A stretch of 64,000 nucleotides of DNA, taken from Pelagibacteraceae bacterium AG-426-I15 (GTDB lineage Bacteria; Pseudomonadota; Alphaproteobacteria; Pelagibacterales; Pelagibacteraceae). The notes under the pieces were generated by a model. It searched no databases. It was not told the origin of the DNA and was given only the letters and a program-made list of their open reading frames with translations. Positions 55 through 42,632 of the stretch are shown here, in pieces. Both the position numbers and the translations under genes were made by a program. Location of the stretch: positions 240,001 through 304,000 of the forward strand of contig QCNT01000001.1 of the NCBI GenBank assembly GCA_003213135.1, given 5' to 3'. Every line of letters starts with the position of its first letter. The stretch's first letter is position 1.

Positions 55-709
55 AAAAGTATTCATATTAGTAGATAACCCTAGAAGTTGGTTTCTTAAC
101 TTTGCAAAAATTTTAAAAAATAAAATTAAAAAAAAAAATATTAGCTGCACGTTAGTAACAAATGCAAAAAAACTAAATAAAAAGGCTGATTTATGTTTTT
201 ATCTATCTTGCACAAAAATAACTAAAAATAAAACTTTAAATCAATTTAAAAAAAATATTGTTGTTCACGGTAGCAATCTACCAATTGGTCGAGGTCATGC
301 CCCATGGATTTGGAAAATTTTATCTGGTTCAAATAAAATTAATTTGTCTTTATTTGAAATCGACCCTTCAAACTCAAAACCTGACTCAGGACCCATATAT
401 CTCAGAGAAAAAATACAATTAAAAGGTACAGAATTACTCGATGATATAAGATTTATTTTAGCGAAAAATATCATTAATATGTGTGTTAAATTTATAGAAC
501 ATATGAAAAAAAGGAAAAATTTTAGACCAAGAAAACAAATCGGAAAGGGAACTTTTTATCGAATGAGAAAGCCAGAGGATCAAGAACTAAATTTAAAAAA
601 AAATATTATTTCTCAGCTTAACTTATTTAGAACGGCTGATAATTATAGATGGCCAGTTTTTTTCAAATATAAAAAAATTAAATACATTCTTAAAGTATAT
701 AAGAGTTAA
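44..709 (+). CDS. formyltransferase-like sugar-modifying protein
   Basis: This 221-residue protein resembles the formyl-transferase fold used by methionyl-tRNA and sugar N-formyltransferases. The visible signature is the central HGSNLPIGRGHAPWIW segment (about residues 75-90), matching the family pattern of His followed by LPxxRGxxP, and a DSGPIYLREKI segment around residue 115, where these enzymes have a conserved D-x-G block. Its position beside a NeuB-like synthase and an aminotransferase suggests formylation or similar acylation of an amino sugar. It converges on the synthase gene with a 4-base overlap of the 3' ends. The C-terminal third is Lys-rich and unremarkable. The fold assignment is fairly safe; the substrate is inferred from neighbours only. 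Confidence 0.6.
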   Translation: MKIKKVFILVDNPRSWFLNFAKILKNKIKKKNISCTLVTNAKKLNKKADLCFYLSCTKITKNKTLNQFKKNIVVHGSNLPIGRGHAPWIWKILSGSNKINLSLFEIDPSNSKPDSGPIYLREKIQLKGTELLDDIRFILAKNIINMCVKFIEHMKKRKNFRPRKQIGKGTFYRMRKPEDQELNLKKNIISQLNLFRTADNYRWPVFFKYKKIKYILKVYKS

Positions 710-1713
710 TTTGAAAATAATTTCATCTCAACTTTCTGAAATTTGATTACATTTCTTTTTAAATTCTTCCCTATAAACTTTTTGTAATCATTTAATTTTA
801 TTTTATTAGCAGGTCTTAAAAAGGAGATGTGATCCAAATTGATTTTAGTATTTTTATTAATATCTTTTGAAAAGTATATTCCTTTTCTAAAAAATTTTTT
901 GTTTTTCATCTCCAATTTAGTGGGATTTATTTTTCCAGACCCCAAAAATTTACTATAGTTTTTTGCAAAAGAAACAATTTCTTTTAAATCTTCTTTGTTT
1001 GCAGAAATATTATGATCTGCACCTATTAATTTTTTATTAAATGTAAAATGTTTTTCAATTACACTTGCTCCTAATGTTATGGCAATTTTACAAGCACCGT
1101 TCCCAATTGTGTGATCAGAATATCCAATTTTATTATTGAACTTACTTTTAAGTGATACTATTCTCTTTAAATTTGCATTGTCTATTGAGCATGGATAAAG
1201 AGAAACACAATGAAGAATCACAATTTTATTACCTAAAATCTTTCTTGCAGTTACTATCTCTTTATAAGTGGCCATACCAGTTGATAAGATTACTTTTTTT
1301 TTAGTTTTTTTTATTTTTTTTAAAAGAACAATGTCATTTATATCTGAGGAAGCAATTTTAAGATAATCGACACCAATTTTTAAGACTTTATTTAAACTCT
1401 TATCGTCAAAAACAGAACATATAAAATCAATTTTATTCTTTTTACAAAAATTTTTTAAAATTTTAAGTTTGTTTGTATCAAGATAAACTCTTTTCCACAT
1501 TTTGCTTAATGATATATTTTTCTTACTATTTTTAATTTGATCTAAGTTTTTTTTCATTTTAGGTCGTCCTAAAGTCTCTGTTTCAAAAACTTGAAATTTA
1601 GCTGCGCTAGCACCAGCTTCTTTAGCATCCAAAATAAGCCTTTTTGCTATTTTCATACTACCATTATGATTAATGCCTATTTCTGCTATGATGTATGTAT
1701 TTGACTTCTTCAT
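706..1713 (-). CDS. NeuB/PseI-family nonulosonic acid synthase
   Basis: Condenses phosphoenolpyruvate with a 6-deoxy-diamino-hexose or ManNAc-type sugar to give a nine-carbon nonulosonic acid (sialic, legionaminic or pseudaminic type). The N-terminal TIM barrel opens with AEIGINHNGS. The metal-binding histidines are intact in GYSDHT (about residue 198) and in IEKHFTF followed by GADHNIS (about 220-235). The C-terminal part, from about residue 275, is the antifreeze-like SAF domain. At 335 residues it is full length. It follows the aminotransferase gene by 2 bases on the same strand. Which acid is made cannot be read from sequence; a second complete synthase lies at 22336. Confidence 0.85.
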   Translation of the reverse strand: MKKSNTYIIAEIGINHNGSMKIAKRLILDAKEAGASAAKFQVFETETLGRPKMKKNLDQIKNSKKNISLSKMWKRVYLDTNKLKILKNFCKKNKIDFICSVFDDKSLNKVLKIGVDYLKIASSDINDIVLLKKIKKTKKKVILSTGMATYKEIVTARKILGNKIVILHCVSLYPCSIDNANLKRIVSLKSKFNNKIGYSDHTIGNGACKIAITLGASVIEKHFTFNKKLIGADHNISANKEDLKEIVSFAKNYSKFLGSGKINPTKLEMKNKKFFRKGIYFSKDINKNTKINLDHISFLRPANKIKLNDYKKFIGKNLKRNVIKFQKVEMKLFSN

Positions 1714-7153: not shown

Positions 7154-7813
7154 TTAAAAAAAACTTTTATTTAAATTACCATCGAAATATATTGTTGATC
7201 CAGAAATATACTTAATATCATTTTCAATTATGAATTTAATGAACTTTCCTATCTCTGCTGGATTACCAATTTTTCCCGTAGGAAGAGCTTTTTCAAAATT
7301 TTTTAAATTATTTACTAATTCCTTAACTCTCCTTGTCTTGAAAGGACCTGGCGCTATATTGATGGTTGAAATTCCAAATTTTGAATTAATTATAGAAAAA
7401 GATTTAAGTAAACTACTCGTTGCAGATCTAATTGAGGAAGATAATATAAGGTCTTTACTAGGTTCTTTTATTATTGAGGAAGAGATATAAAAAACATATC
7501 CGTTTTTATTTATTTTTAAATTTTGTAGTAAAAGAAAAAAGCCAAGAAATAATTGCTTAAAATATTTTTCCCAATCTTTAGTTCTTATTTTTTCAAATTT
7601 TATGTTAGGGGGGCCGCCGGAATTTAATACAAGAATATCTGTGTTTTTATGTTTCTTAATAAATTTATTTACTGAAATAATGTCAGAGGTATCTATATCA
7701 TTTCTTGAGCAAGAAATTGTTTTAATTTTAAGGGATTTTAGATGTTTAGTTATTTCTCCCCCTAAACCTTTGCTTCCTCCTAAAACTATCGCTTTCTTAT
7801 TCTTAAATCTCAT
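7154..7813 (-). CDS. short-chain dehydrogenase/reductase (SDR)
   Basis: Classical SDR of 219 residues: VLGGSKGLGGEI cofactor loop at residues 10-21, NSGGPP in place of the usual NNAG, then SSSI followed by a region where the catalytic Tyr-x3-Lys is not obvious (SSSIRSATSSLLKSFS). The C-terminal half has INIAPGPFKTRRV, the usual substrate-loop region, and ends with SGSTIYFDG. If the missing Tyr is real, activity may be altered or lost. Its start overlaps the upstream degenerate NeuB-like gene by 11 bases. Probably acts on a sugar or its nucleotide derivative, by context. Confidence 0.7.
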   Translation of the reverse strand: MRFKNKKAIVLGGSKGLGGEITKHLKSLKIKTISCSRNDIDTSDIISVNKFIKKHKNTDILVLNSGGPPNIKFEKIRTKDWEKYFKQLFLGFFLLLQNLKINKNGYVFYISSSIIKEPSKDLILSSSIRSATSSLLKSFSIINSKFGISTINIAPGPFKTRRVKELVNNLKNFEKALPTGKIGNPAEIGKFIKFIIENDIKYISGSTIYFDGNLNKSFF

Positions 7814-8561
7814 TTTTAAAGATATTTATTTTATAAATTTTTTTTGTAAACTTATTTGCTTTTAAGTAATTAATATAGTTTTTCTTCACTTTTTCAAGCT
7901 CATCCAAATAAACTGCATGTTCATTATCGGGATAAACCCGTTTTTTTCGTCTTACCGGCTTACAATATAAAAAAATAATTTTTGGATTATAGCACGAAAG
8001 AACATTTAGATTATTAATATCGTTATTGTGATTACTGTAGCCAACATCTAGTTTAAATTTTTTTCTCATAATATTTATTTTCGGAAAATTTAATTCTGAA
8101 GCATTGTAAGTCATTGGGGTATGAAGTATTGTAAGCTTATTTTTACTTTTGAACATTTTAATACTTTTTTGCACCTGGGAAATACTTGTATTGAAGCCTG
8201 TCGAAATAAAAACATGTTTATTTCTTTTCCTCAAACATTCTATTAAAGGATAATTATTGACACTGATACTTAATAATTTATAAAAATCGAAATTTAAATC
8301 TTTTAGTTCATCAAAAGTTTTTAAGTCACAAACAGATAAACCGATTTTTTTTCCTTTTTCATGAGATATATTTATTGCTTTTTTGTAAAACTCTCGAGAT
8401 AATTTAAAATTAATTTTTTTTTTTAAGTATTTCTTATAAAATTTTTCTGTATGGAGCATGAAAGTAAGGTTTTTGAATGTTGATTTTACAAAAAAGTCTA
8501 AGGTTTTTTTTGCTAACTTTGTTTCCCCAAAGTGATTTATACCGGCCTCAATAACAAACAT
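7803..8561 (-). CDS. degenerate NeuB-like TIM-barrel protein, no SAF domain
   Basis: A 252-residue relative of nonulosonic acid synthases: it opens with IEAGINHFGE, as NeuB does, and has LHTPMTYNAS and GYSNHN where the synthases have a Cys-rich strand and GYSDHT. The later metal-binding block EKHF is replaced (KIIFLYCKPVRR), so one conserved His appears to be a Tyr, and the C-terminal antifreeze-like domain is absent. It is either a decayed duplicate or a barrel recruited for another step. It lies 35 bases downstream of the radical SAM gene and overlaps the SDR gene, so it may be in the riboswitch-led transcription unit. Confidence 0.6.
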   Translation of the reverse strand: MFVIEAGINHFGETKLAKKTLDFFVKSTFKNLTFMLHTEKFYKKYLKKKINFKLSREFYKKAINISHEKGKKIGLSVCDLKTFDELKDLNFDFYKLLSISVNNYPLIECLRKRNKHVFISTGFNTSISQVQKSIKMFKSKNKLTILHTPMTYNASELNFPKINIMRKKFKLDVGYSNHNNDINNLNVLSCYNPKIIFLYCKPVRRKKRVYPDNEHAVYLDELEKVKKNYINYLKANKFTKKIYKINIFKNEI

Positions 8562-8596: not shown

Positions 8597-10027
8597 TTAT
8601 TCATGCATTGCAGTATTGCTATCCATAGCTGCAGACATTGGAGATTGATATTCTCCATCTCTCTCTTGCTCCCAAGCATGCTTATAAATTCCGAATTCCT
8701 CATTATATATTTTAATATATTCTTTTAATTCTTGTTTTGGCATCCAGTTAACGTCTGTTCTTTCCTCAAACCTCGAGGATATATTTCTTTTTGACCAGCC
8801 TAAAAGTGTTGTTGGAGGTTTATATCCCATCCCAACCGCATCTTTAAACATCTTCGTTGCGGGCAAAGGAATAAAAATACAATTTTGTAAGAAAATATTA
8901 GGGTTCACTTTTTTCAATTCGTGCATCAATTTTATTGTTTCTCTTAAATCAGCCACAGTTTCTCCAGGCATCGCAAACATAAACGAAGCATACATTTCTA
9001 TACCTAATCCTCCTAGAACCTCTGCACTTTTGACATAGTCCTCTCGTTTTACTTTTTTAACCATAAAATCTAGCATTCTTTGAGATCCGCTCTCTACTCC
9101 AAACATAACTGAAGTTAATCCTGATTTTTTCATATATTTAAATTGCTCTGGGGAATATTGTCTATGAAAAGTTCCTCTTGCTTGACCTTTCCATTTTTTC
9201 TCCTGACCTAAGTTATTTATTAACTCCGCACAGTCCATTACAACGCTGGCCTTTAGGAAAAAAGTTGGATCCCTAAAACATAAATTATCGAATTTTAGAT
9301 CGTCTAAGAGATACTTAATTTCTCTGTGGTATTGAGAAGGTAATTTATGTGATGTATTGAAATTACCTGTCGCACAAAAAGTACACTTAAAAGGACATCC
9401 TCTTGTTTTGAAGTACGCAACAACATTGTTCTTTGACCGATACTTTTCTACATCTATTAAATGATATGCTGGAGCTTCCTCGTAATCAAACTTTGCAAAA
9501 TTTGGTATTCTTTGTCCAGCTATTTCACCTTTTTTGTCTCTCCACAAAACTCCTTTTAACTCTGGAGGAAATTCTTTTTTTTCAAATAGACAGTCTAAAA
9601 CTTTTGGAAAAGTATATTCCGCGGGACCTAAAAAAACATAATCAGCCATATTCTCATTAAAAATTTCATCTGGTAAAGCCGATGAATGATGACCACCCCA
9701 CATAACATGAACTTTATTTTTCATTGATTGAGCTATCTGACTTGCTCTCATTGCAGGTATTAAGTCTGGTCCAGACATACTTGTGATACCAATAGCAAAA
9801 GCGTCTTCAAGCTCTTTTTGTAAAATTTGCTCCCAGTTCTCCATGTTGACCCTAGAGTCTAATATGACAACTTCATAGCCGTGGTTTTCTAAGAATGGAG
9901 CCATGTACAAATATGGGAATGGCATCCAAACATCATTTTCGTATCCAACGTGAGGGAAAAACAAAACGATTTTTGCCTTTCTATTTTTTGGCTTTTCTGG
10001 AATTTTATTATGTTTATCGCAAATCAT
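8597..10027 (-). CDS. B12-binding-domain radical SAM protein
   Basis: Cytoplasmic radical SAM enzyme of the cobalamin-binding subclass. The N-terminal 150 residues form a Rossmann-like B12-binding domain (LENHGYEVVILDSR, TSMSG, WGGHHSSALP). The 4Fe-4S ligands are in RGCPFKCTFCATG (about residues 208-220, C-x3-C-x2-C). The barrel continues with FGVESGSQRMLDFM and MPGETVADLRET. Members of this subclass do radical methylations and ring or carbon-skeleton changes; the substrate here is unknown. It overlaps the stop of the DUF6580-like gene by one base and lies in the cobalamin-riboswitch operon, so its cofactor supply and expression appear linked. Confidence 0.85.
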   Translation of the reverse strand: MICDKHNKIPEKPKNRKAKIVLFFPHVGYENDVWMPFPYLYMAPFLENHGYEVVILDSRVNMENWEQILQKELEDAFAIGITSMSGPDLIPAMRASQIAQSMKNKVHVMWGGHHSSALPDEIFNENMADYVFLGPAEYTFPKVLDCLFEKKEFPPELKGVLWRDKKGEIAGQRIPNFAKFDYEEAPAYHLIDVEKYRSKNNVVAYFKTRGCPFKCTFCATGNFNTSHKLPSQYHREIKYLLDDLKFDNLCFRDPTFFLKASVVMDCAELINNLGQEKKWKGQARGTFHRQYSPEQFKYMKKSGLTSVMFGVESGSQRMLDFMVKKVKREDYVKSAEVLGGLGIEMYASFMFAMPGETVADLRETIKLMHELKKVNPNIFLQNCIFIPLPATKMFKDAVGMGYKPPTTLLGWSKRNISSRFEERTDVNWMPKQELKEYIKIYNEEFGIYKHAWEQERDGEYQSPMSAAMDSNTAMHE

Positions 10028-10524
10028 TAATTTTTAAGAATGTTTAAATTAAACCTTTTTATACACAATTGGCAAGATGCTTCAATTAAAAAAGCAAAAA
10101 CCAAAGTAGAAATGAGGCTATAACCGAAAAAAGGAATTGCCATAAAGTAACTAGTAAAAAGACCATTTATTGAGTAACCATAAGAACCTAATGTCCATAC
10201 ACCAAAGTTTGTTACAATAAAAAACAAACATGCACCCAATAAGCAACCACTAATTCTCTTTATTAAAGAATTACTGAAATTGTTCGCGAGCAATCCAATG
10301 ATCAAAACACTTCCCCAAGTAAACAGAACCGTTCCATGGAAACCAATTATCAAATCCGTAATAACAAAACTTACAAGAAGAGCTGGCAAATATCTTTTAC
10401 CCAAAATTGCAGGAACATAAAAAGATAAAGCTATAAGACTGGTAAAGTTTGGCGGATGAGGAATAAATCTACTTGCCGCGAGTGCAAGGAAAATTCCGAA
10501 AAATATTTTTAAATCTTTTTTCAT
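10027..10524 (-). CDS. DUF6580-like small membrane protein (possible substrate-capture component)
   Basis: About 165 residues with five or six hydrophobic segments and a short conserved RFIPHPPNFT stretch after the first, typical of the DUF6580 putative transport family, whose size and topology resemble ECF-transporter S components. I choose the ATG at 10524 (MKKDLKIFFG), 7 bases after the receptor gene's stop; a longer form from 10554 would overlap that gene. It sits between the BtuB-type receptor and a B12 radical SAM gene, under the riboswitch. A role in moving cobalamin or a precursor across the inner membrane is inferred from context only; no BtuCDF or ECF ATPase lies nearby. Confidence 0.65.
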   Translation of the reverse strand: MKKDLKIFFGIFLALAASRFIPHPPNFTSLIALSFYVPAILGKRYLPALLVSFVITDLIIGFHGTVLFTWGSVLIIGLLANNFSNSLIKRISGCLLGACLFFIVTNFGVWTLGSYGYSINGLFTSYFMAIPFFGYSLISTLVFAFLIEASCQLCIKRFNLNILKN

Positions 10525-10531
10525 TAATTCA

Positions 10532-12475
10532 TTAGTATAGTTTTTTAAAACCAATATTTAAAGCTCTTTCTGGAGCAGCAAATTGTAGAGCCTGACTATA
10601 TTTTTCATCAAAAACATTAGAAAGTGAAACATAGCCTCTATAATTTTGATACAAAAAGTCGAGTCCGAAGTCATTTACTAAATATGAATCTAATCTAACA
10701 TCTGTATAATTCGACTCATTTCCGTTTCCATAGTCTCTTGCTGTATCTGACCATTTAGTTTTCCAATTAACGCTCATATTATTTAAAATGTTATAATTTA
10801 TTCCAAAATTTAATAAATGTCTTGGTACCCTTACCATCTGAGAGCTGTGAAAATCACCGGCACTTCCAGGACCCATATCAGGATCATCAAAATCTGCACC
10901 ATCATAAGTATTATTGTAAGTGTATTGTAAATTAAAATTTAAATCTTTTTTAGGTTTAAAATTTGAAATTAAATCAATACCTTTAGTTGTAACTGTTCCG
11001 GCGACATTTTTTGGTGTCCATCCAGCTGCCTTCCATCCCTCAATGGTATCTTCGTACCTATGCTGAAAAAAAGTTAAGTCTACGTCAAATCCTATGTTCG
11101 AAAAACTTTTTTCAATACCAAAATCAAAACTTTCTCCATGTTCAGCCACTAAAGAGTCAGGGTTTCCACTTTTGTAATATTCATACAAAGATGGAAATTT
11201 TATACCAGTCCCATAAGAAGATTTTATTTTTGCTCCTAAAGCATCAGATAGATAAGCAACAGATATTCTTTCGCTATCCTCATTTAGATTCTGGCTATGT
11301 TTATCAAACCTAGCTCCAAAAGTCGCGAATAATTTTTCGTTTAATTTTGATTGAACATCTATGTATTGTGAAGTTATCTCTTCACCCTTTTTAAAATCTG
11401 TTGGAGATCCCCACGCTCCCTTATAGTCATAAGGATTATATCTCATTTCTTCAAATTCTTTTTCAATTCCAAAAACAACATTATAATTATCATTTACTTT
11501 ATAATTATTTTCTAAACTTATAGTGTCACGATATGACCAATAATCTTGTTCTAAAACTACATTATAAAATTGATTAACAACATTATCCGATGTTCTACTC
11601 ATATAGGCATTACTGAAAATTATGTTACTTTTTAATTTATCAATTGGTTTATAAGTAAAATTTAGAGTAGCTGAAGAGTCTTTTTCATGTGAGCTATTAT
11701 CAATTTGATTAAAAGTTGATCGAACAGCGTCATAATGAAGTTTTGAATCTGTAAATTTGTAGATACCTCGAAATTCCAAATTCTCAGAAATTTTGTAACC
11801 ATAATTTGTTAAAAATGTATGGTTTTTATATGCATCCTTTTCATCATTATGTGTCATCGCTGAGATACCATCGGTTTGATATCTTTCAACACCAATATAA
11901 AAGTCCTTAGTTTCATCAGATCCGCCATATGAAAATCCTAAGTTATGTGTGTTATTTGTGCCCGCCGAATAAGAATAATTATTTTTAAAATCACCAGAGC
12001 CTTTTTTTGAGAATATATTTATTGTTCCTCCCATAGCTCCACTTCCATATATAGAACTTTGGTTTCCTTTTAAAATTTCAACTCTTGATATTGGCCCTGT
12101 AAGTATATCGTCAAAGTAAAAATCATTCTTTGGAGTTGATGCATCTGATTTTTTAACCCCATCAATGTAAACAGTTGAATATGCCTTAGGCAAACCTCTG
12201 AGTTGTAGACCCATTTGTGTACCAGCACCGCCTGTTTGAAAAAAATTCATTCCTGGAACAGAATTATTCAACAAATCACCTAAAAAAAAATCTTTAGACC
12301 CAATCAAGTCTTGTTCATCTAATACTTTTACAGACGTTCCTACCGTAGAAATAGATTGAGGTGTTTTACTTGGTGCAATTACAATAACAGGGATTTCTTT
12401 TGCATTAACACTCACAAAAGAAAAAGCTGTTAATATTATTAATAAAAATGTTATTTTTTTAAAATTTTTTAGCAT
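10532..12475 (-). CDS. btuB: BtuB-type TonB-dependent outer-membrane receptor
   Basis: A 647-residue outer-membrane receptor, most likely for cobalamin. A signal peptide (residues 1-25, ending VSVNA) is followed by a TonB-box-like segment (IPVIVIAPSKTPQ). The plug domain (about 40-155) holds GLPKAYSTVYIDGVKKSD and IEILKGNQSSIYGSGAMGG-like sequence, and a long beta-barrel with alternating Tyr/Asn-rich strands ends at IGFKKLY. The B12 assignment rests on the cobalamin riboswitch directly upstream. TonB-dependent receptors are uncommon in streamlined SAR11 genomes as far as I know, and no TonB-ExbBD genes are seen in the window. Confidence 0.88.
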   Translation of the reverse strand: MLKNFKKITFLLIILTAFSFVSVNAKEIPVIVIAPSKTPQSISTVGTSVKVLDEQDLIGSKDFFLGDLLNNSVPGMNFFQTGGAGTQMGLQLRGLPKAYSTVYIDGVKKSDASTPKNDFYFDDILTGPISRVEILKGNQSSIYGSGAMGGTINIFSKKGSGDFKNNYSYSAGTNNTHNLGFSYGGSDETKDFYIGVERYQTDGISAMTHNDEKDAYKNHTFLTNYGYKISENLEFRGIYKFTDSKLHYDAVRSTFNQIDNSSHEKDSSATLNFTYKPIDKLKSNIIFSNAYMSRTSDNVVNQFYNVVLEQDYWSYRDTISLENNYKVNDNYNVVFGIEKEFEEMRYNPYDYKGAWGSPTDFKKGEEITSQYIDVQSKLNEKLFATFGARFDKHSQNLNEDSERISVAYLSDALGAKIKSSYGTGIKFPSLYEYYKSGNPDSLVAEHGESFDFGIEKSFSNIGFDVDLTFFQHRYEDTIEGWKAAGWTPKNVAGTVTTKGIDLISNFKPKKDLNFNLQYTYNNTYDGADFDDPDMGPGSAGDFHSSQMVRVPRHLLNFGINYNILNNMSVNWKTKWSDTARDYGNGNESNYTDVRLDSYLVNDFGLDFLYQNYRGYVSLSNVFDEKYSQALQFAAPERALNIGFKKLY

Positions 12476-12483
12476 GTAGCTAT

Positions 12484-12646
12484 CTCCTTTTTTTTAGCCA
12501 CTGCTAATTTTTCATTGTAGAACTAGACTTTTCCTGGCCCTCATTCACAGCGGTCTCTGTTGGGCGGCACTCCGACTTTACGGTTGCAGGTACAGCCAAT
12601 GAATTTCACACTGATTCCCCACCAATTCAACAGAATTTGTTCTTAT
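12484..12646 (-). promoter_or_regulatory. cobalamin (B12) riboswitch
   Basis: The minus-strand leader of btuB has the conserved cobalamin aptamer blocks in order: GGGGAATC and GTGAAATTC (plus positions 12601-12609), GGCTGTACCTGCAACCG (about 12581-12597), GAGTGCCGCC (12563-12572) and GGCCAGGA (12532-12539). The closing stem pairs AGAAC (12639-12643) with GTTCT (12519-12523). Downstream, TTAGC-AGTG-GCTAA (12494-12507) forms a hairpin next to the AGGAG ribosome site. It has no U-tract, so translational control is more likely than termination. B12 binding should reduce receptor synthesis. Confidence 0.9.
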
Positions 12647-12771: not shown

Positions 12772-12787
12772 GTTCAAATAATGAACA
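12771..12787. promoter_or_regulatory. palindromic operator copy 2, overlapping the start codon
   Basis: TGTTCAAATAATGAACA shares the TGTTCA/TGAACA arms and 5-base centre spacing of copy 1. It begins at the last base of the -10 box, covers the predicted transcription start and includes the ATG of the regulator gene. The centre-to-centre distance of 23 bases is about two helical turns, suiting two dimers on one DNA face. Confidence 0.65.
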
Positions 12788-13086
12788 AAAATAATGAAGA
12801 CCATTTTCAAGTTCTGAGAAAAATACATAAAAAACCGGATACCTCTCAAAGAGAATTGGCAGAGGAGCTTGGATTTAGCTTAGGTAAATTGAATTATTGT
12901 ATTAATGCATTAATTTCGAAAGGTCTTTTAAAAATAAATAATTTTAAAAAGCAAAAAAATAAAGCTCAATATTTTAAGTATGTAATTACATCAAGGGGTA
13001 TATCTGAGAGGACAAAACTTACAGTGAATTTTATGAAAAAAAAAATGAAAGAATATGATGAGCTTAAAAAAGAGCTTAAAAAATAA
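12781..13086 (+). CDS. MarR-family EPS-associated transcriptional regulator
   Basis: A 101-residue winged-helix protein matching the EPS-associated MarR-type family found at the head of surface polysaccharide operons. The helix-turn-helix is in DTSQRELAEELGFSLGKLNY (about residues 19-38), the wing in INNFKKQKNKAQYFKYVIT, and a Lys/Glu-rich helix at the C-terminus. It is the first gene of the long plus-strand train; its stop overlaps the ATG of the NusG-like gene by one base. Two palindromes in its promoter make autoregulation likely. Control of the neighbouring divergent B12 operon is possible but not shown. Confidence 0.85.
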   Translation: MNKNNEDHFQVLRKIHKKPDTSQRELAEELGFSLGKLNYCINALISKGLLKINNFKKQKNKAQYFKYVITSRGISERTKLTVNFMKKKMKEYDELKKELKK

Positions 13087-13583
13087 TGTGGTTAGTATTT
13101 AAAATTAAAAAAAAAAAATTAAATCAATTTCGAGAGGACCTTGAAAAAAAAATTGACAAAAATTTTTTAATTTATTCCCCAAAAATCCTAATAAAGAAAA
13201 AATTAAAAAAACAAGAGAAAAATCATGAATTGCAACTTCTAGACGATTATATTTTTTGTTATCATTCTAATTTTTCTGATCAAAAGTTTTTAACTAAAAT
13301 AAAATATTGTAGAGGTTTAAAATATTTCTTAACAGGTTATAAATTAGGACAATCTGAAATTAAGAAATTTATAGACTTATGTAAAAGTTTTGAAAACAAA
13401 GAAGGTTTTTTAAATTACGATTTTTTCAAAATAGATTTAAATAGAAATTATAAAATTTTATCTGGACCTTTTATTGGTCAGATAGTGAAAATATTAAATT
13501 ACCAAAAGAATAAAATAGATTTAGTATTAGGAAATATAAAAGCTTCAACTAATAGAGAAAATCTTTTATTTAAGCCTGTCTAA
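13086..13583 (+). CDS. NusG-paralogue antiterminator (RfaH/UpxY-like)
   Basis: A 165-residue NusG-type protein: an N-terminal NGN-like domain (MWLVFKIKKKKLNQFREDL, then LLDDYIFCYH about residue 55) and a C-terminal KOW domain beginning LSGPFIGQIVKI at about residue 123. Specialised NusG paralogues such as RfaH ride RNA polymerase from an ops-type pause site and suppress premature termination in long surface polysaccharide operons. Its place as second gene of a train running to 42.4 kb fits that role. It is unlikely to be the essential NusG, which sits with rplK/rplA genes. The downstream gap holds a candidate recruitment element. Confidence 0.8.
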   Translation: MWLVFKIKKKKLNQFREDLEKKIDKNFLIYSPKILIKKKLKKQEKNHELQLLDDYIFCYHSNFSDQKFLTKIKYCRGLKYFLTGYKLGQSEIKKFIDLCKSFENKEGFLNYDFFKIDLNRNYKILSGPFIGQIVKILNYQKNKIDLVLGNIKASTNRENLLFKPV

Positions 13584-28317: not shown

Positions 28318-29481
28318 ATGATTGAAGAGAAAAAAGAATATAAAAAACATAATAGCTTTATTAAATTCTCATCTAGCTCCAAGAATGATTCAAATAATAT
28401 TTTGATTAAAATAAAAAAAATCTTGAACAATCCAAATTATTTGAAACATTTAAATTCAGTTAATTTAAATCTTATAAAAGTAATTCAGAAAGATTTGTTC
28501 TCACCAAATATGAAAAAAGACAGCAATGATATTTTCAAATTATCACAACACGTGATAGATGACCTAAACATTTTAGAAGATAAAGAAATCCCTAAGTACC
28601 TGATACATAGATACAGGTATGAAATTTATCCAATAAAAAAAATCCTTGATGATTTTCCACCTTATCTTCAAATTGAACCAAGCTCTATATGTAATTATAG
28701 ATGCGTGTTTTGTTTTGAAACTGATAAATCATTTACAAATAAAAAAAATGGTTTTATGGGTACGATGAAACTTGAATTATTTAAAGATATAATTGATCAA
28801 GCTCATAAAAATGTAGAATTTATATCTCTTGCATCAAGAGGAGAACCTTTAGTCTGTAAGGACATTGATAAAATGTTAGAGTACACTACAGGTAAATTTT
28901 TAAATCTTAAGATAAACACTAATGCTTCCTTATTAAATGAAAAATCAATACATGCGATTTTGAACGGAGGTGTAAAAACTGTTGTTTTTTCTGCTGATGC
29001 TGCAGACGAAGACCTTTATGCAAAATTAAGAGTAAATGGCAATTTAAAAAATGTATTAAAAAATATTGAAAAATTTAACAAAATTAAAACTACTAGATAT
29101 CCAAATAAAAAAATTATTACTAGAGTTTCAGGAGTAAAAGTTAATGATAGCCAAGATATTAATGCAATGCAAAATTTATGGGGAGATTTAGTTAATCAAG
29201 TTGCATTCGTTGACTACAATCCATGGGAAAATGTTTATGATAGTAATGAAAGTCAAATTAGTAAACCATGTTCAGATTTATGGAGAAGGATGTTTGTTTG
29301 GTGGGATGGCAAAGCTAACCCGTGTGATACAGATTATAAATCAATACTATCACCAGGAAATTTTAAGGAAATGAATATTGAAAAATTGTGGAATTCCGAA
29401 GTATATAATAATTTGAGGCAAAAGCATGAAATGAAATCAAGGAAAAATATTTTCCCTTGCAAAAACTGTTGCGTGACTTAA
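28318..29481 (+). CDS. radical SAM protein with SPASM-type C-terminus
   Basis: A 387-residue radical SAM enzyme. A 110-residue N-terminal extension of unknown role precedes CNYRCVFC (about residues 123-130), the C-x3-C-x2-C 4Fe-4S motif. SRGEPL and LKINTNAS follow in the barrel. The C-terminus has CSDLWRRMFVWWDGKANPCD and ends FPCKNCC, matching SPASM/twitch auxiliary cluster ligands. Such proteins occur in sugar dehydration and peptide modification. Location between a CMP-sugar gene and an SDR/isomerase pair suggests a sugar substrate, by inference. Confidence 0.8.
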   Translation: MIEEKKEYKKHNSFIKFSSSSKNDSNNILIKIKKILNNPNYLKHLNSVNLNLIKVIQKDLFSPNMKKDSNDIFKLSQHVIDDLNILEDKEIPKYLIHRYRYEIYPIKKILDDFPPYLQIEPSSICNYRCVFCFETDKSFTNKKNGFMGTMKLELFKDIIDQAHKNVEFISLASRGEPLVCKDIDKMLEYTTGKFLNLKINTNASLLNEKSIHAILNGGVKTVVFSADAADEDLYAKLRVNGNLKNVLKNIEKFNKIKTTRYPNKKIITRVSGVKVNDSQDINAMQNLWGDLVNQVAFVDYNPWENVYDSNESQISKPCSDLWRRMFVWWDGKANPCDTDYKSILSPGNFKEMNIEKLWNSEVYNNLRQKHEMKSRKNIFPCKNCCVT

Positions 29482-31028: not shown

Positions 31029-32633
31029 ATGAAGATACTTTTTATATATCCAAACACCTATGGAATGAACATGATTCCTCCCGCTATAGCTATGTTTTCA
31101 TCAATGTTAAAAAAAGATGGTCATGAAGTAGAAATTTTTGACACCACATACTACCAAACAGACCATGGGATTGACTCTGATGGTAGTAAAATGGAAAGAT
31201 TAAACGTAGTTCCTTACAAAATGAACAAAGATGATTTGCTAAAGAAAACAGATTGGCGGAAAGATTTGAATAATCAAGTTACAAGATTTAAACCAGATTT
31301 ATTTGCAATTTCTGCTACTGAGGATATGTGGGAACTTGGACTTAGAATTATAGAAGAAGTAAAGGAATATAAAATTAAAAATAATGTTCCTGTTATTGCA
31401 GGTGGAGTTTTTTCTACATTCGCGCCGGATTTATGTATTAAACATGAACTCATTGATTTAGTTTGTGTCGGAGAGGGTGAAAATGCTCTTAAAGATATTT
31501 GTAATAAAATAGAAAAAAAAGATTACGATTTTTTAAAAATAACTAATTGTTGGGTTAAAAAAGAGGGAAAAATAGTTGCGAAAAATTCAATAACAAAACC
31601 AGTTGATATCAATACTAATTCAGTAATTGATGTTTCATTGTTTGAAGAAAATAGACTTTATCGTCCGATGGCTGGGCAAGTTTATAAAATGCTACCAGTT
31701 GAAACAATAAGAGGATGTCCGTTTACTTGCAGATTCTGTAATTCACCTGATCAAATGAGACTATACAAGGGTGTGGGAGCAAATTTCTACAGAAAAAAAA
31801 AGATGGACTTAGTTTACAAGGAATTAAAATATTTTAAAGATGTTGAAAAAGTTCAATATAATTATTTTTGGGCTGATACATTTTTAGGAATGAGCAATAA
31901 AGAATTTGATGAGTTTTGTGAAATGTATTCTGATATCAAATTACCTTTTTGGATACAAACTAGACCAGAGACAGTAACAGATTATAACATGAAGAAACTT
32001 AAATCAGTTGGTCTCCATAGAATTTCTTTTGGTATAGAACATGGAAACGAAGAGTTTAGAAAAAACATATTAGATAGAAGATGGAAAAATAAAGATATAA
32101 TTGATAAATTAAAAATTCCTAAAATCTATGATATTCCATTTAGCGCGAATAATATCACTGGCTTTCCAACGGAGACTAAAAAACTTGCATTTGATACTAT
32201 TGAGTTGAACAGGCAGATAGATGCCGATAATGCCAATATTTATGCATTTGTTCCATTTCACGGAACACCTTTACGAAAGATGTGCGAAGATTTAGGGCTG
32301 ATAAAGCACGAAACTATTACAAAATGTTTAACGGCTGAAAGTCAACTTACTATGCCGCAATATCCACCCCATGAAATTGAGGAAATAAAAAAATGTTTTT
32401 CTTTATACGTTAAATTTCCTAAGAGCAGGTGGAAGGAAATTCAAAGAGCTGAGAAAAACGATAAAGAAGGCAATAGAATATACAAATTATTAAAAAGTGA
32501 ATATCTTGAAAAGTATATGCCAAAACCGGATGCTGATCCTCATGGAGGACTTGAAGATTTTGAAAAACTTGATGATCCTATTTGCAGCGCAGCAACTATT
32601 CGTCCTAAGAGCACATCTGACGAAATGCATTAG
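31029..32633 (+). CDS. B12-binding-domain radical SAM protein (second copy type)
   Basis: A 534-residue enzyme with an N-terminal cobalamin-binding-like domain (IYPNTYGMNMIPPAIAMFSS, LKKDGHEVEIFDTTY, VIAGGVFSTFAP, CVGEGENAL) followed by the radical SAM core, whose ligands are in RGCPFTCRFC (about residues 229-238). FGIEHGNEEFRKNIL and ITGFPTETKKLAFDT are barrel signatures. It differs strongly from the B12-type enzyme at 8597, so it is not a recent duplicate. The substrate is unknown; the SDR and isomerase before it and the carbohydrate protein after it point to glycan precursor chemistry such as C-methylation. Confidence 0.83.
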   Translation: MKILFIYPNTYGMNMIPPAIAMFSSMLKKDGHEVEIFDTTYYQTDHGIDSDGSKMERLNVVPYKMNKDDLLKKTDWRKDLNNQVTRFKPDLFAISATEDMWELGLRIIEEVKEYKIKNNVPVIAGGVFSTFAPDLCIKHELIDLVCVGEGENALKDICNKIEKKDYDFLKITNCWVKKEGKIVAKNSITKPVDINTNSVIDVSLFEENRLYRPMAGQVYKMLPVETIRGCPFTCRFCNSPDQMRLYKGVGANFYRKKKMDLVYKELKYFKDVEKVQYNYFWADTFLGMSNKEFDEFCEMYSDIKLPFWIQTRPETVTDYNMKKLKSVGLHRISFGIEHGNEEFRKNILDRRWKNKDIIDKLKIPKIYDIPFSANNITGFPTETKKLAFDTIELNRQIDADNANIYAFVPFHGTPLRKMCEDLGLIKHETITKCLTAESQLTMPQYPPHEIEEIKKCFSLYVKFPKSRWKEIQRAEKNDKEGNRIYKLLKSEYLEKYMPKPDADPHGGLEDFEKLDDPICSAATIRPKSTSDEMH

Positions 32634-41357: not shown

Positions 41358-42386
41358 ATGAGAAAAGATTTAATAATAATAAACAATGAAAAATGTTTAG
41401 AAAAATCTGAAACCTATTATTGCGAAAATATAGAAATAAGTTCTATAAATGATCTTTTAAGTAAAAAATTTAATGTTAAATTAATTTTAAGAAAATCAAA
41501 TATAAATCCTATTCATAGAATTAAAAATAATAATGTATTTGCATGCTCTAATATTTTTTCGTTTATTAAGAATATTATTAATATAGCTTCAAAAAAAAAT
41601 TCTATTTGTTTAATAATTGCTGTAACACCGTATACCTTTGCATCTTTTTTATTTCTTATATTATTTAAAAGAGAAATTTTTCTTTATTTAAGAAGTGATG
41701 GCAAGAAAGAGATATCTGCAATTTTTGGAAAAAAAATTTCAATTATTTATAAAATAATCGAAAATATCATGGTAAAATTTTGTAATCTAATTGTAGTAAA
41801 TAATATAATAGTAAAGAAAAAAAAATTTCAAATTGTAAACCCATCTCAAATTGACGAAGATTGGACTAAAAATATTAAAAAGTCCAATAGAAATCAAATA
41901 AAATTACTTTATGTAGGAAGATTAAAAATTGAAAAAGGTATTTATTCTTTAATTGATATTTTTAATAAAATTAAATTTCAAGATAAGAAAATTCTACTTA
42001 CTTTAATAGGACAAGGAAAAAAACCAACTGAGATTAATGAAAGAATAAAATTTATAAATCCTATATCAAAAAAAGAGGATTTAATTAAACAATATGATGC
42101 ACATGATATTTTTATATTGCCATCTTTTACCGAAGGGCAACCTCAGGTACTAATTGAAAGTTTAATAAGACAAAGGCCTGTTATTGTTTTCAAAGAAATA
42201 CAGCATGTCCGCCAAAATTATAAAGGCGTGTTTGTGGTTGATAGAAATGCAAAAGATTTATTTAATAAAATAAAGTTTATAGATAAAAATTATGAGCAAA
42301 TTTTAAGCGAAATGAAAACAAACAAATACCCAACCAAGGAAAATTTTTTAAATCAGTTAGATGCAATATTTAAAATGGGCGTGTAG
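41358..42386 (+). CDS. GT4-type glycosyltransferase whose stop lies in tRNA-Val
   Basis: A 342-residue GT-B glycosyltransferase: IKLLYVGRLKIEKGIYSLIDIF (abbreviated: about residues 184-205) and DIFILPSFTEGQPQVLIESLI (abbreviated: about 248-268) with the Glu-x7-Glu motif. The N-terminal acceptor domain has one hydrophobic segment (about 90-108) that could rest on the membrane. Its last codons, Gly-Val-stop, are read from the first ten bases of tRNA-Val(GAC). It is the final gene of the island, so the junction with the conserved flank falls exactly at the tRNA. Confidence 0.8.
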   Translation: MRKDLIIINNEKCLEKSETYYCENIEISSINDLLSKKFNVKLILRKSNINPIHRIKNNNVFACSNIFSFIKNIINIASKKNSICLIIAVTPYTFASFLFLILFKREIFLYLRSDGKKEISAIFGKKISIIYKIIENIMVKFCNLIVVNNIIVKKKKFQIVNPSQIDEDWTKNIKKSNRNQIKLLYVGRLKIEKGIYSLIDIFNKIKFQDKKILLTLIGQGKKPTEINERIKFINPISKKEDLIKQYDAHDIFILPSFTEGQPQVLIESLIRQRPVIVFKEIQHVRQNYKGVFVVDRNAKDLFNKIKFIDKNYEQILSEMKTNKYPTKENFLNQLDAIFKMGV

Positions 42387-42451
42387 TTCAATGGTAGAAC
42401 GCTACGTTGACATCGTAGAGGTCATAAGTTCGATTCTTATCACGCCCACCA
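42377..42451 (+). tRNA. tRNA-Val (anticodon GAC)
   Basis: Cloverleaf with acceptor stem GGGCGTG/CACGCCC, D arm with AATGGTA, anticodon loop TTGACAT in a CTACG/CGTAG stem, variable AGGTC, T arm with TTCGATT and an encoded CCA at 42449-42451. Anticodon GAC reads GUC/GUU valine codons. Its first ten bases double as the end of the glycosyltransferase gene. Confidence 0.92.
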
Positions 42452-42480
42452 AACCCAAGAAGATTAGCCACTAAATAGTA

Positions 42481-42509
42481 TTTACAATGTGGAAAAAAAA
42501 TAATATAAA
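42481..42509 (+). promoter_or_regulatory. candidate promoter for orphan 5S rRNA
   Basis: TTTACA at 42481-42486 and TATAAA at 42504-42509 are 17 bases apart, each one base from the sigma70 consensus. The expected start at about 42515 coincides with the 5' end of the 5S rRNA. A dedicated promoter would explain how 5S is made when it is separated from the 16S-23S unit. Confidence 0.5.
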
Positions 42510-42512
42510 TTC

Positions 42513-42632
42513 GTGCCTGGTGATTATTGCGAAGGGGTAATACCCGATCCCATTCCGAACTCGGAAGTCAAGCCCTTCAGCGCCGATGGTACTTTGTCTT
42601 AAGATATGGGAGAGTAGGTCGTTGCCAGGCTT
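42513..42632 (+). rRNA. rrf: 5S ribosomal RNA, detached from 16S-23S
   Basis: About 118 bases with terminal helix GCCTGG/CCAGGC, the conserved CCCATTCCGAACTCGGAAGTCAAG-type loop (central block around 42550-42575) and GATGGTACT of the helix IV/V junction. No 23S gene is within 42 kb upstream in the window. SAR11 genomes are known for a 5S gene separated from 16S-23S by a hypervariable region, which this layout matches. Confidence 0.92.

Follow-up and report, generated by a model that had tools for sequence, protein, structure and literature searches.

A candidate vitamin B12 acquisition cassette in hypervariable region 2 of SAR11 genomes, with a DUF6580 protein as putative inner-membrane importer

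How might a SAR11 cell acquire vitamin B12, and which enzymes would make use of it? SAR11 bacteria are among the most abundant cells of the ocean and are counted as B12-auxotrophic. P. ubique has been reported to lack any TonB-dependent transporters (PMC3400609), and a study from 2022 stated it as unknown whether B12 regulates btuB of SAR11 (PMC9296465). We here analyzed a locus of Pelagibacteraceae bacterium AG-426-I15 that raises these questions, located in a window (the whole stretch of DNA analyzed) of 64 kb from a genome of 977 kb in 19 contigs. Gene absence was assessed by profile searches over genomes, with the AG-426-I15 genome being 88% complete.

The locus is encoded on the minus strand (12633 down to 8597) and opens with an RF01689 riboswitch, followed by the genes of a TonB-dependent receptor, of a DUF6580 protein and of a radical SAM enzyme with a B12-binding domain. 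The features of the window used in the analysis were the following.

7154–7813, minus strand: SDR-family oxidoreductase (PF00106/PF13561), overlapping the NeuB-like gene
7803–8561, minus strand: short NeuB-like (nonulosonic acid synthase) gene, partial match to PF03102 (79 bits)
8597–10027, minus strand: B12-binding radical SAM enzyme A (PF04055, 70 bits; PF02310, 60 bits), with CPFKCTFC as its CxxxCxxC motif
10027–10524, minus strand: DUF6580 (PF20221) six-helix membrane protein (Pfam 95.7 bits; gathering cut-off 27)
10532–12475, minus strand: BtuB-type TonB-dependent outer-membrane receptor (Pfam Plug and barrel)
12493–12556, minus strand: conserved expression-platform element (about 62 nt), many of its columns being invariant in an alignment of 36 SAR11 leaders
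12557–12633, minus strand: aptamer of a short-class cobalamin riboswitch (AdoCbl-II, RF01689; Rfam 88.4 bits, gathering score 36.5)
31029–32633, plus strand: B12-binding radical SAM enzyme B, within a glycan gene train (PF04055, 63 bits; PF02310, 50 bits)
42377–42630, plus strand: tRNA-Val (at 42377) and 5S rRNA (at 42516), the far border of hypervariable region 2

A preliminary description of this DNA had proposed that the riboswitch, the BtuB-type receptor, the DUF6580-like protein and the radical SAM enzyme are tightly packed, and they were indeed found to lie a few bases apart or to overlap slightly. The stop of the receptor gene at 10532 and the likely ATG of DUF6580 at 10524 leave a gap of 7 nt (the DUF6580 ORF as listed starts with a TTG at 10554, which would overlap the receptor), while DUF6580 and radical SAM enzyme A share one base at 10027. 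The gene set formerly assigned to positions 8597–12646 could be kept, with the riboswitch end corrected, as the aptamer ends at 12633. The NeuB-like gene follows on the same strand after 35 nt, with no terminator-like site in between on that strand, and the transcript may thus exceed its earlier extent, probably including the NeuB-like and SDR genes. The order of riboswitch, receptor and DUF6580 was kept across SAR11, and was found also in SAR116 and the sister family, there with class-I riboswitches.

The site of the cassette is SAR11 hypervariable region 2 (HVR2), because tRNA-Val and 5S rRNA lie within the window, at 42377 and 42516, and the 16S gene about 5–6 kb upstream of it. The surroundings consist of nucleotide-sugar, nonulosonic-acid and glycosyltransferase genes, as expected from the previous assignment of the region as a surface-glycan island. 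Among the relatives, no more than about 30 bases separated the end of the cassette from the 23S gene at loci L033 and L034, and at L032 and L036 the cassette was found 4–5 kb from 5S. Divergent to the cassette (12781–13583, plus strand), we noted a MarR-family EPS regulator (TIGR04176, above cut-off) together with an UpxY-like antiterminator match below cut-off, a pair typical of the start of polysaccharide gene trains. Two NeuB-family genes were seen in the window, one full-length (706–1713, minus strand) and the short, partial one that comes after radical SAM enzyme A (7803–8561, minus strand). A SPASM-type radical SAM protein is encoded at 28318–29481 (plus strand), three genes ahead of enzyme B in the same gene train.

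The match of the cassette to RF01689 was the only one in the 977-kb genome. An RNAalifold consensus of 35 SAR11 leaders gave 32 pairs, 15 of them with at least one two-sided (compensatory) change; these changes were nearly all within the aptamer, and the pairs of the expression platform showed almost no covariation. The loop of the platform hairpin contains CAGG (from 12536); its complement, CCUG, lies in aptamer loop L5 (12587–12590) and was invariant among the SAR11 leaders. A kissing loop between L5 and L13 is part of the known architecture of cobalamin riboswitches (PMC10907184), and the CAGG/CCUG pairing would fit such a loop, with platform pairs too invariant to prove it. How far past the platform element the start codon of the receptor lies varied among the 38 listed leaders. 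A short upstream ORF of the leader (ATG AAA AAT TAG) was dropped as a candidate element, since relatives do not conserve it.

The best NCBIfam model for the receptor was that of TonB-B12 (TIGR01779), with 168.9 bits compared to 101 for hemin; since this score is below the curated cut-off of 599.7, the protein is BtuB-like and not an orthologue by that model. The same model matched all 26 relatives aligned, and when an AF2 model of the receptor (pLDDT 80) was compared to PDB folds, the first seven matches were all E. coli BtuB, with TM scores of 0.77–0.91. Near its N-terminus the receptor has the sequence EIPVIVIAPSK, which is similar to a TonB box and was kept in one receptor subtype. Two relatives had irregular receptor genes, one broken into two ORFs by a frameshift or sequencing error (L058:4990-6937) and one with a shortened C-terminus (L060).

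It is puzzling that a B12 receptor is present although no TonB could be detected. TonB_C (PF03544) gave no match in 61 genomes, including near-complete, cassette-bearing genomes of the sister family, and TonB_2 (PF13103) matched in one of the 61, a genome without DUF6580, and not in that of AG-426-I15. Each genome with a match to ExbD/TolR had one such protein, which in AG-426-I15 is encoded in a tolQ-tolR-tolA-like-tolB-pal cluster (L139:9752-13565, i.e. G000:C1:313752-317565), the tolA-like protein of which, having 268 aa, matched no Pfam family. Energisation of the receptor may hence be explained either by a diverged TonB that the profiles missed or by the Tol system driving the receptor.

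For passage across the inner membrane, it had been suggested that DUF6580 provides the missing step, as no BtuCDF was seen. BtuC (FecCD) was found neither in the 88%-complete genome nor in any SAR11 relative searched, so that no btuCDF elsewhere contradicted this proposal. SAR11 relatives gave only FecCD cross-hits of about 17–31 bits, whereas true BtuC-type proteins of the other Alphaproteobacteria searched scored 272–288 bits; the weak SAR11 matches, mostly of about 270 aa, were not accepted as BtuC and probably belong to the ZnuB type. The CbiQ/EcfT family was absent from the AG-426-I15 genome and positive in one of the 61 genomes, that single match (L147, G035:C2:118715-119245) being in a 1023-aa frame of a cassette-bearing SAR11 relative.

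The AF2 model of DUF6580 (pLDDT 92, pTM 0.87) had PDB fold matches with TM scores of about 0.6 that, in the list shown, were all ECF S-components (CbiM, BioY, FolT and others), the best single one being the cobalt S-component CbiM and the Foldseek E-values being non-significant (best 0.68). A profile built from 70 DUF6580 sequences matched only 6FNP (ECF-CbrT) in the PDB, weakly (E=0.093), over profile positions 7–114 and with PN and GF positions shared; the 182-aa chain A of 6FNP was taken as CbrT by its length and name. Searches of the PDB using phmmer with a single DUF6580 protein, or using a profile of 20 SAR11 DUF6580 sequences, found nothing. The invariant or nearly invariant columns of the 70 sequences included His (nearly invariant) and an Asp (invariant), with no Cys among them. 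Our literature search found no paper naming DUF6580. Gene context and predicted fold, as two independent lines, thus argue that DUF6580 is probably a solo S-component-type (BtuM-like) B12 importer, the solo reading being taken because no ECF module was found. The inner-membrane role proposed at the outset is in this way supported by gene order, BtuC absence, the S-component fold and the weak CbrT profile match.

DUF6580 was found in 24 of 90 genomes searched of the Pelagibacteraceae (AG-426-I15 counted) and in 46 of 53 genomes of the sister family, and, among public genome contigs, beyond these in SAR116, SAR86, Omnitrophota, Bacteroidia and others. Within Pelagibacteraceae and SAR116 it nearly always follows a receptor of BtuB type, and cobalamin riboswitches of either class were seen upstream of it in many loci. 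Class-I cobalamin riboswitches were noted near DUF6580 in Omnitrophota (L100), Ignavibacteria (L126) and Pedosphaera (L127), and the link to B12 thereby reaches beyond Proteobacteria. Across 48 loci, the identities of receptor and DUF6580 were uncorrelated (r=0.05); compared to the window, locus L042 had a receptor of 74% and a DUF6580 of 35% identity, while for L036 these values were 27% and 58%. Because of this lack of correlation, receptors and importers appear to have been swapped separately around one substrate, with the riboswitch retained.

We next consider the enzymes that would use the imported vitamin. The window had been said to hold a second, very different B12-type radical SAM enzyme 21 kb away, and enzymes A and B were found to be only 19% identical. 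In 197 family genomes a single homologue of enzyme A was found (76% identical, in G003), it too directly after DUF6580, while relatives L032, L035 and L036 have homologues of enzyme B (72–79% identical) immediately upstream of the cassette; the group of enzyme B is the commonest radical SAM neighbour of the cassette and enzyme A is rare. A phage origin of enzyme A was considered and not retained, as it gave only distant matches (25% identity), in a single Streptomyces phage. The co-occurrence of the cassette with B12-type radical SAM genes in SAR11, which the preliminary description had proposed to check, was seen: of 53 distinct Pelagibacteraceae loci, 33 had a radical SAM gene no more than 3 kb from the cassette. 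Thirty-five such sequences, the pair from the window included, fell into 17 groups at 35% identity, and of 32 cassette-adjacent radical SAM proteins scanned all but one (31) had a B12-binding domain.

A predominance of the radical SAM homologues in genomes without B12 import, named in the preliminary description as contrary evidence, was not seen, B12-binding proteins being found mostly in genomes with DUF6580. Among 55 Pelagibacteraceae genomes, hits to the B12-binding domain above cut-off were found in 17 of 18 having DUF6580 compared to 6 of 37 lacking it (Fisher p=2e-8, with genome kinship ignored), the six being G014 and five genomes of 60–82% completeness. The count of B12 proteins leaves out weak PF02310 matches (about 21–24 bits, about 355 aa). 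In G014, riboswitch and receptor are present beside an assembly anomaly at the 23S gene, where the receptor ORF runs oddly into 23S rRNA (L151:5793-10046), being an assembly chimera or a recombination that may explain the absence of DUF6580. The only B12-binding proteins detected in the AG-426-I15 genome were radical SAM enzymes A and B. From these sequence comparisons, the cassette seems to be carried by some SAR11 only, and mainly by those also holding B12-dependent radical SAM enzymes. The glycan genes around them make the proposed B12-dependent sugar chemistry by the radical SAM enzymes of the island plausible.

The class of the riboswitch may also be related to the form of the cofactor. 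Short-class cobalamin riboswitches prefer non-adenosylated forms of cobalamin. Searches for two adenosyltransferase families found none in 37 Pelagibacteraceae genomes, and the Pelagibacteraceae searched are therefore probably unable to make adenosylcobalamin. A PduO-type adenosyltransferase was found in 21 of 24 genomes searched of the sister family, where B12-domain ORFs of about 731 and about 653 aa have the sizes of methylmalonyl-CoA mutase subunits and, judged by that size, would be such subunits; locus L051 of this family (from G091) has a class-I riboswitch. The sensor would thus seem to match the cofactor, with the short class in the family lacking adenosyltransferase and the long class (class I) in the family having it.

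Considering these results together, we regard it as likely that the locus is an accessory B12 acquisition cassette of SAR11, situated in HVR2 and feeding B12-binding radical SAM enzymes. The short-class riboswitch would sense non-adenosylated cobalamin and, when B12 is plentiful, would repress the operon as known switches do. The BtuB-type receptor, a role strongly supported by homology, would carry the cobamide across the outer membrane, whereupon DUF6580 would move it across the inner membrane with neither BtuCDF nor an ECF module, as has been proposed for BtuM. The imported B12 would serve the B12-binding radical SAM enzymes, with A and B, from their gene context, probably modifying building blocks of surface glycans. 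A more far-reaching version, which we hold only tentatively and at somewhat less than even chance, is that DUF6580 constitutes a new and widespread family of solo B12 importers of Gram-negative bacteria, and that the receptor of SAR11 is Tol-driven without TonB, with the cassette feeding a swappable set of radical SAM enzymes of methylcobalamin type, by which surface glycans are diversified.

Some of the same observations allow other readings. DUF6580 might process or store the corrinoid at the membrane, for instance by decyanation or ligand exchange, with import by another system such as a BacA/SbmA-type ABC protein. BtuM also modifies B12 (PMC6072759), and mycobacteria are reported to import B12 through an ABC protein of the BacA type (PMC10960864); however, DUF6580 sits beside the receptor in most loci and in several phyla, its predicted fold is that of a transporter subunit, and the sister-family genomes of which 46 of 53 carry it also lack BtuC, so that we consider this reading unlikely. 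It is still less probable that the substrate imported is cobinamide or a different corrinoid (e.g. picocyanobacterial pseudocobalamin), or that the cassette mainly scavenges cobalt, rather than supplying the radical SAM cofactor. Cobinamide is also bound by CbrT and BtuM (PMC5997447, PMC6072759), and CbiM, the best single fold match of DUF6580, is a cobalt S-component, but the cobalamin riboswitch, the BtuB fold and the tie to B12 radical SAM enzymes all indicate a complete cobamide cofactor. A third possibility, that the receptor persists chiefly because phages select for a variable surface protein and that its B12 role is vestigial, would agree with its location in HVR2, its highly variable sequence exchanged independently of DUF6580 and the lack of a TonB found. 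Yet the riboswitch has compensatory changes, the segment resembling a TonB box has been retained, and the receptor is linked to DUF6580 and to B12 enzymes, making this the least probable of the readings.

For the genomes holding it, a B12 acquisition cassette gives a testable answer as to whether B12 can be taken up, by which protein, under which switch and for which client enzymes. It also suggests a likely function for DUF6580, an uncharacterised Pfam family present in several phyla.

Compared to known systems, the cassette resembles BtuB-BtuCDF in having a BtuB-type receptor under a cobalamin riboswitch, and differs in that neither a BtuC-type permease nor TonB was detected. Its radical SAM enzymes share the two domains and the CxxxCxxC motif with the B12-binding group of HpnJ, BchE, PhpK and ApyD, but A and B scored far below every curated cut-off. 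The riboswitch has the aptamer family (RF01689), and possibly the L5–L13 kissing loop, in common with other short-class riboswitches, to which we take env8 to belong. In 2010 such riboswitches were reported from sequences of marine origin (PMC2864571), and the structure of env8 has been solved with hydroxocobalamin (PMC10907184); in env8 a loop with the RBS is evident, whereas the SAR11 platform is a conserved element of about 62 nt that in many genomes is away from the start codon. CbrT of Lactobacillus delbrueckii (PDB 6FNP) shares the S-component fold and is the sole PDB sequence matching the DUF6580 profile (E=0.093), but it requires an ECF module for transport (PMC5997447) and no EcfT was found in the AG-426-I15 genome. 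With BtuM of Thiobacillus denitrificans no sequence match to DUF6580 was found; BtuM has an invariant cobalt-ligating Cys, the conserved residues of DUF6580 being instead His (nearly invariant) and an Asp (invariant), and BtuM is usually encoded beside btuR, whereas the Pelagibacteraceae searched were without adenosyltransferase. Like DUF6580, however, BtuM is a small six-helix inner-membrane protein of Gram-negative bacteria with an S-component fold and no ECF module, and it was first predicted by its co-localisation with btuB (PMC6072759).
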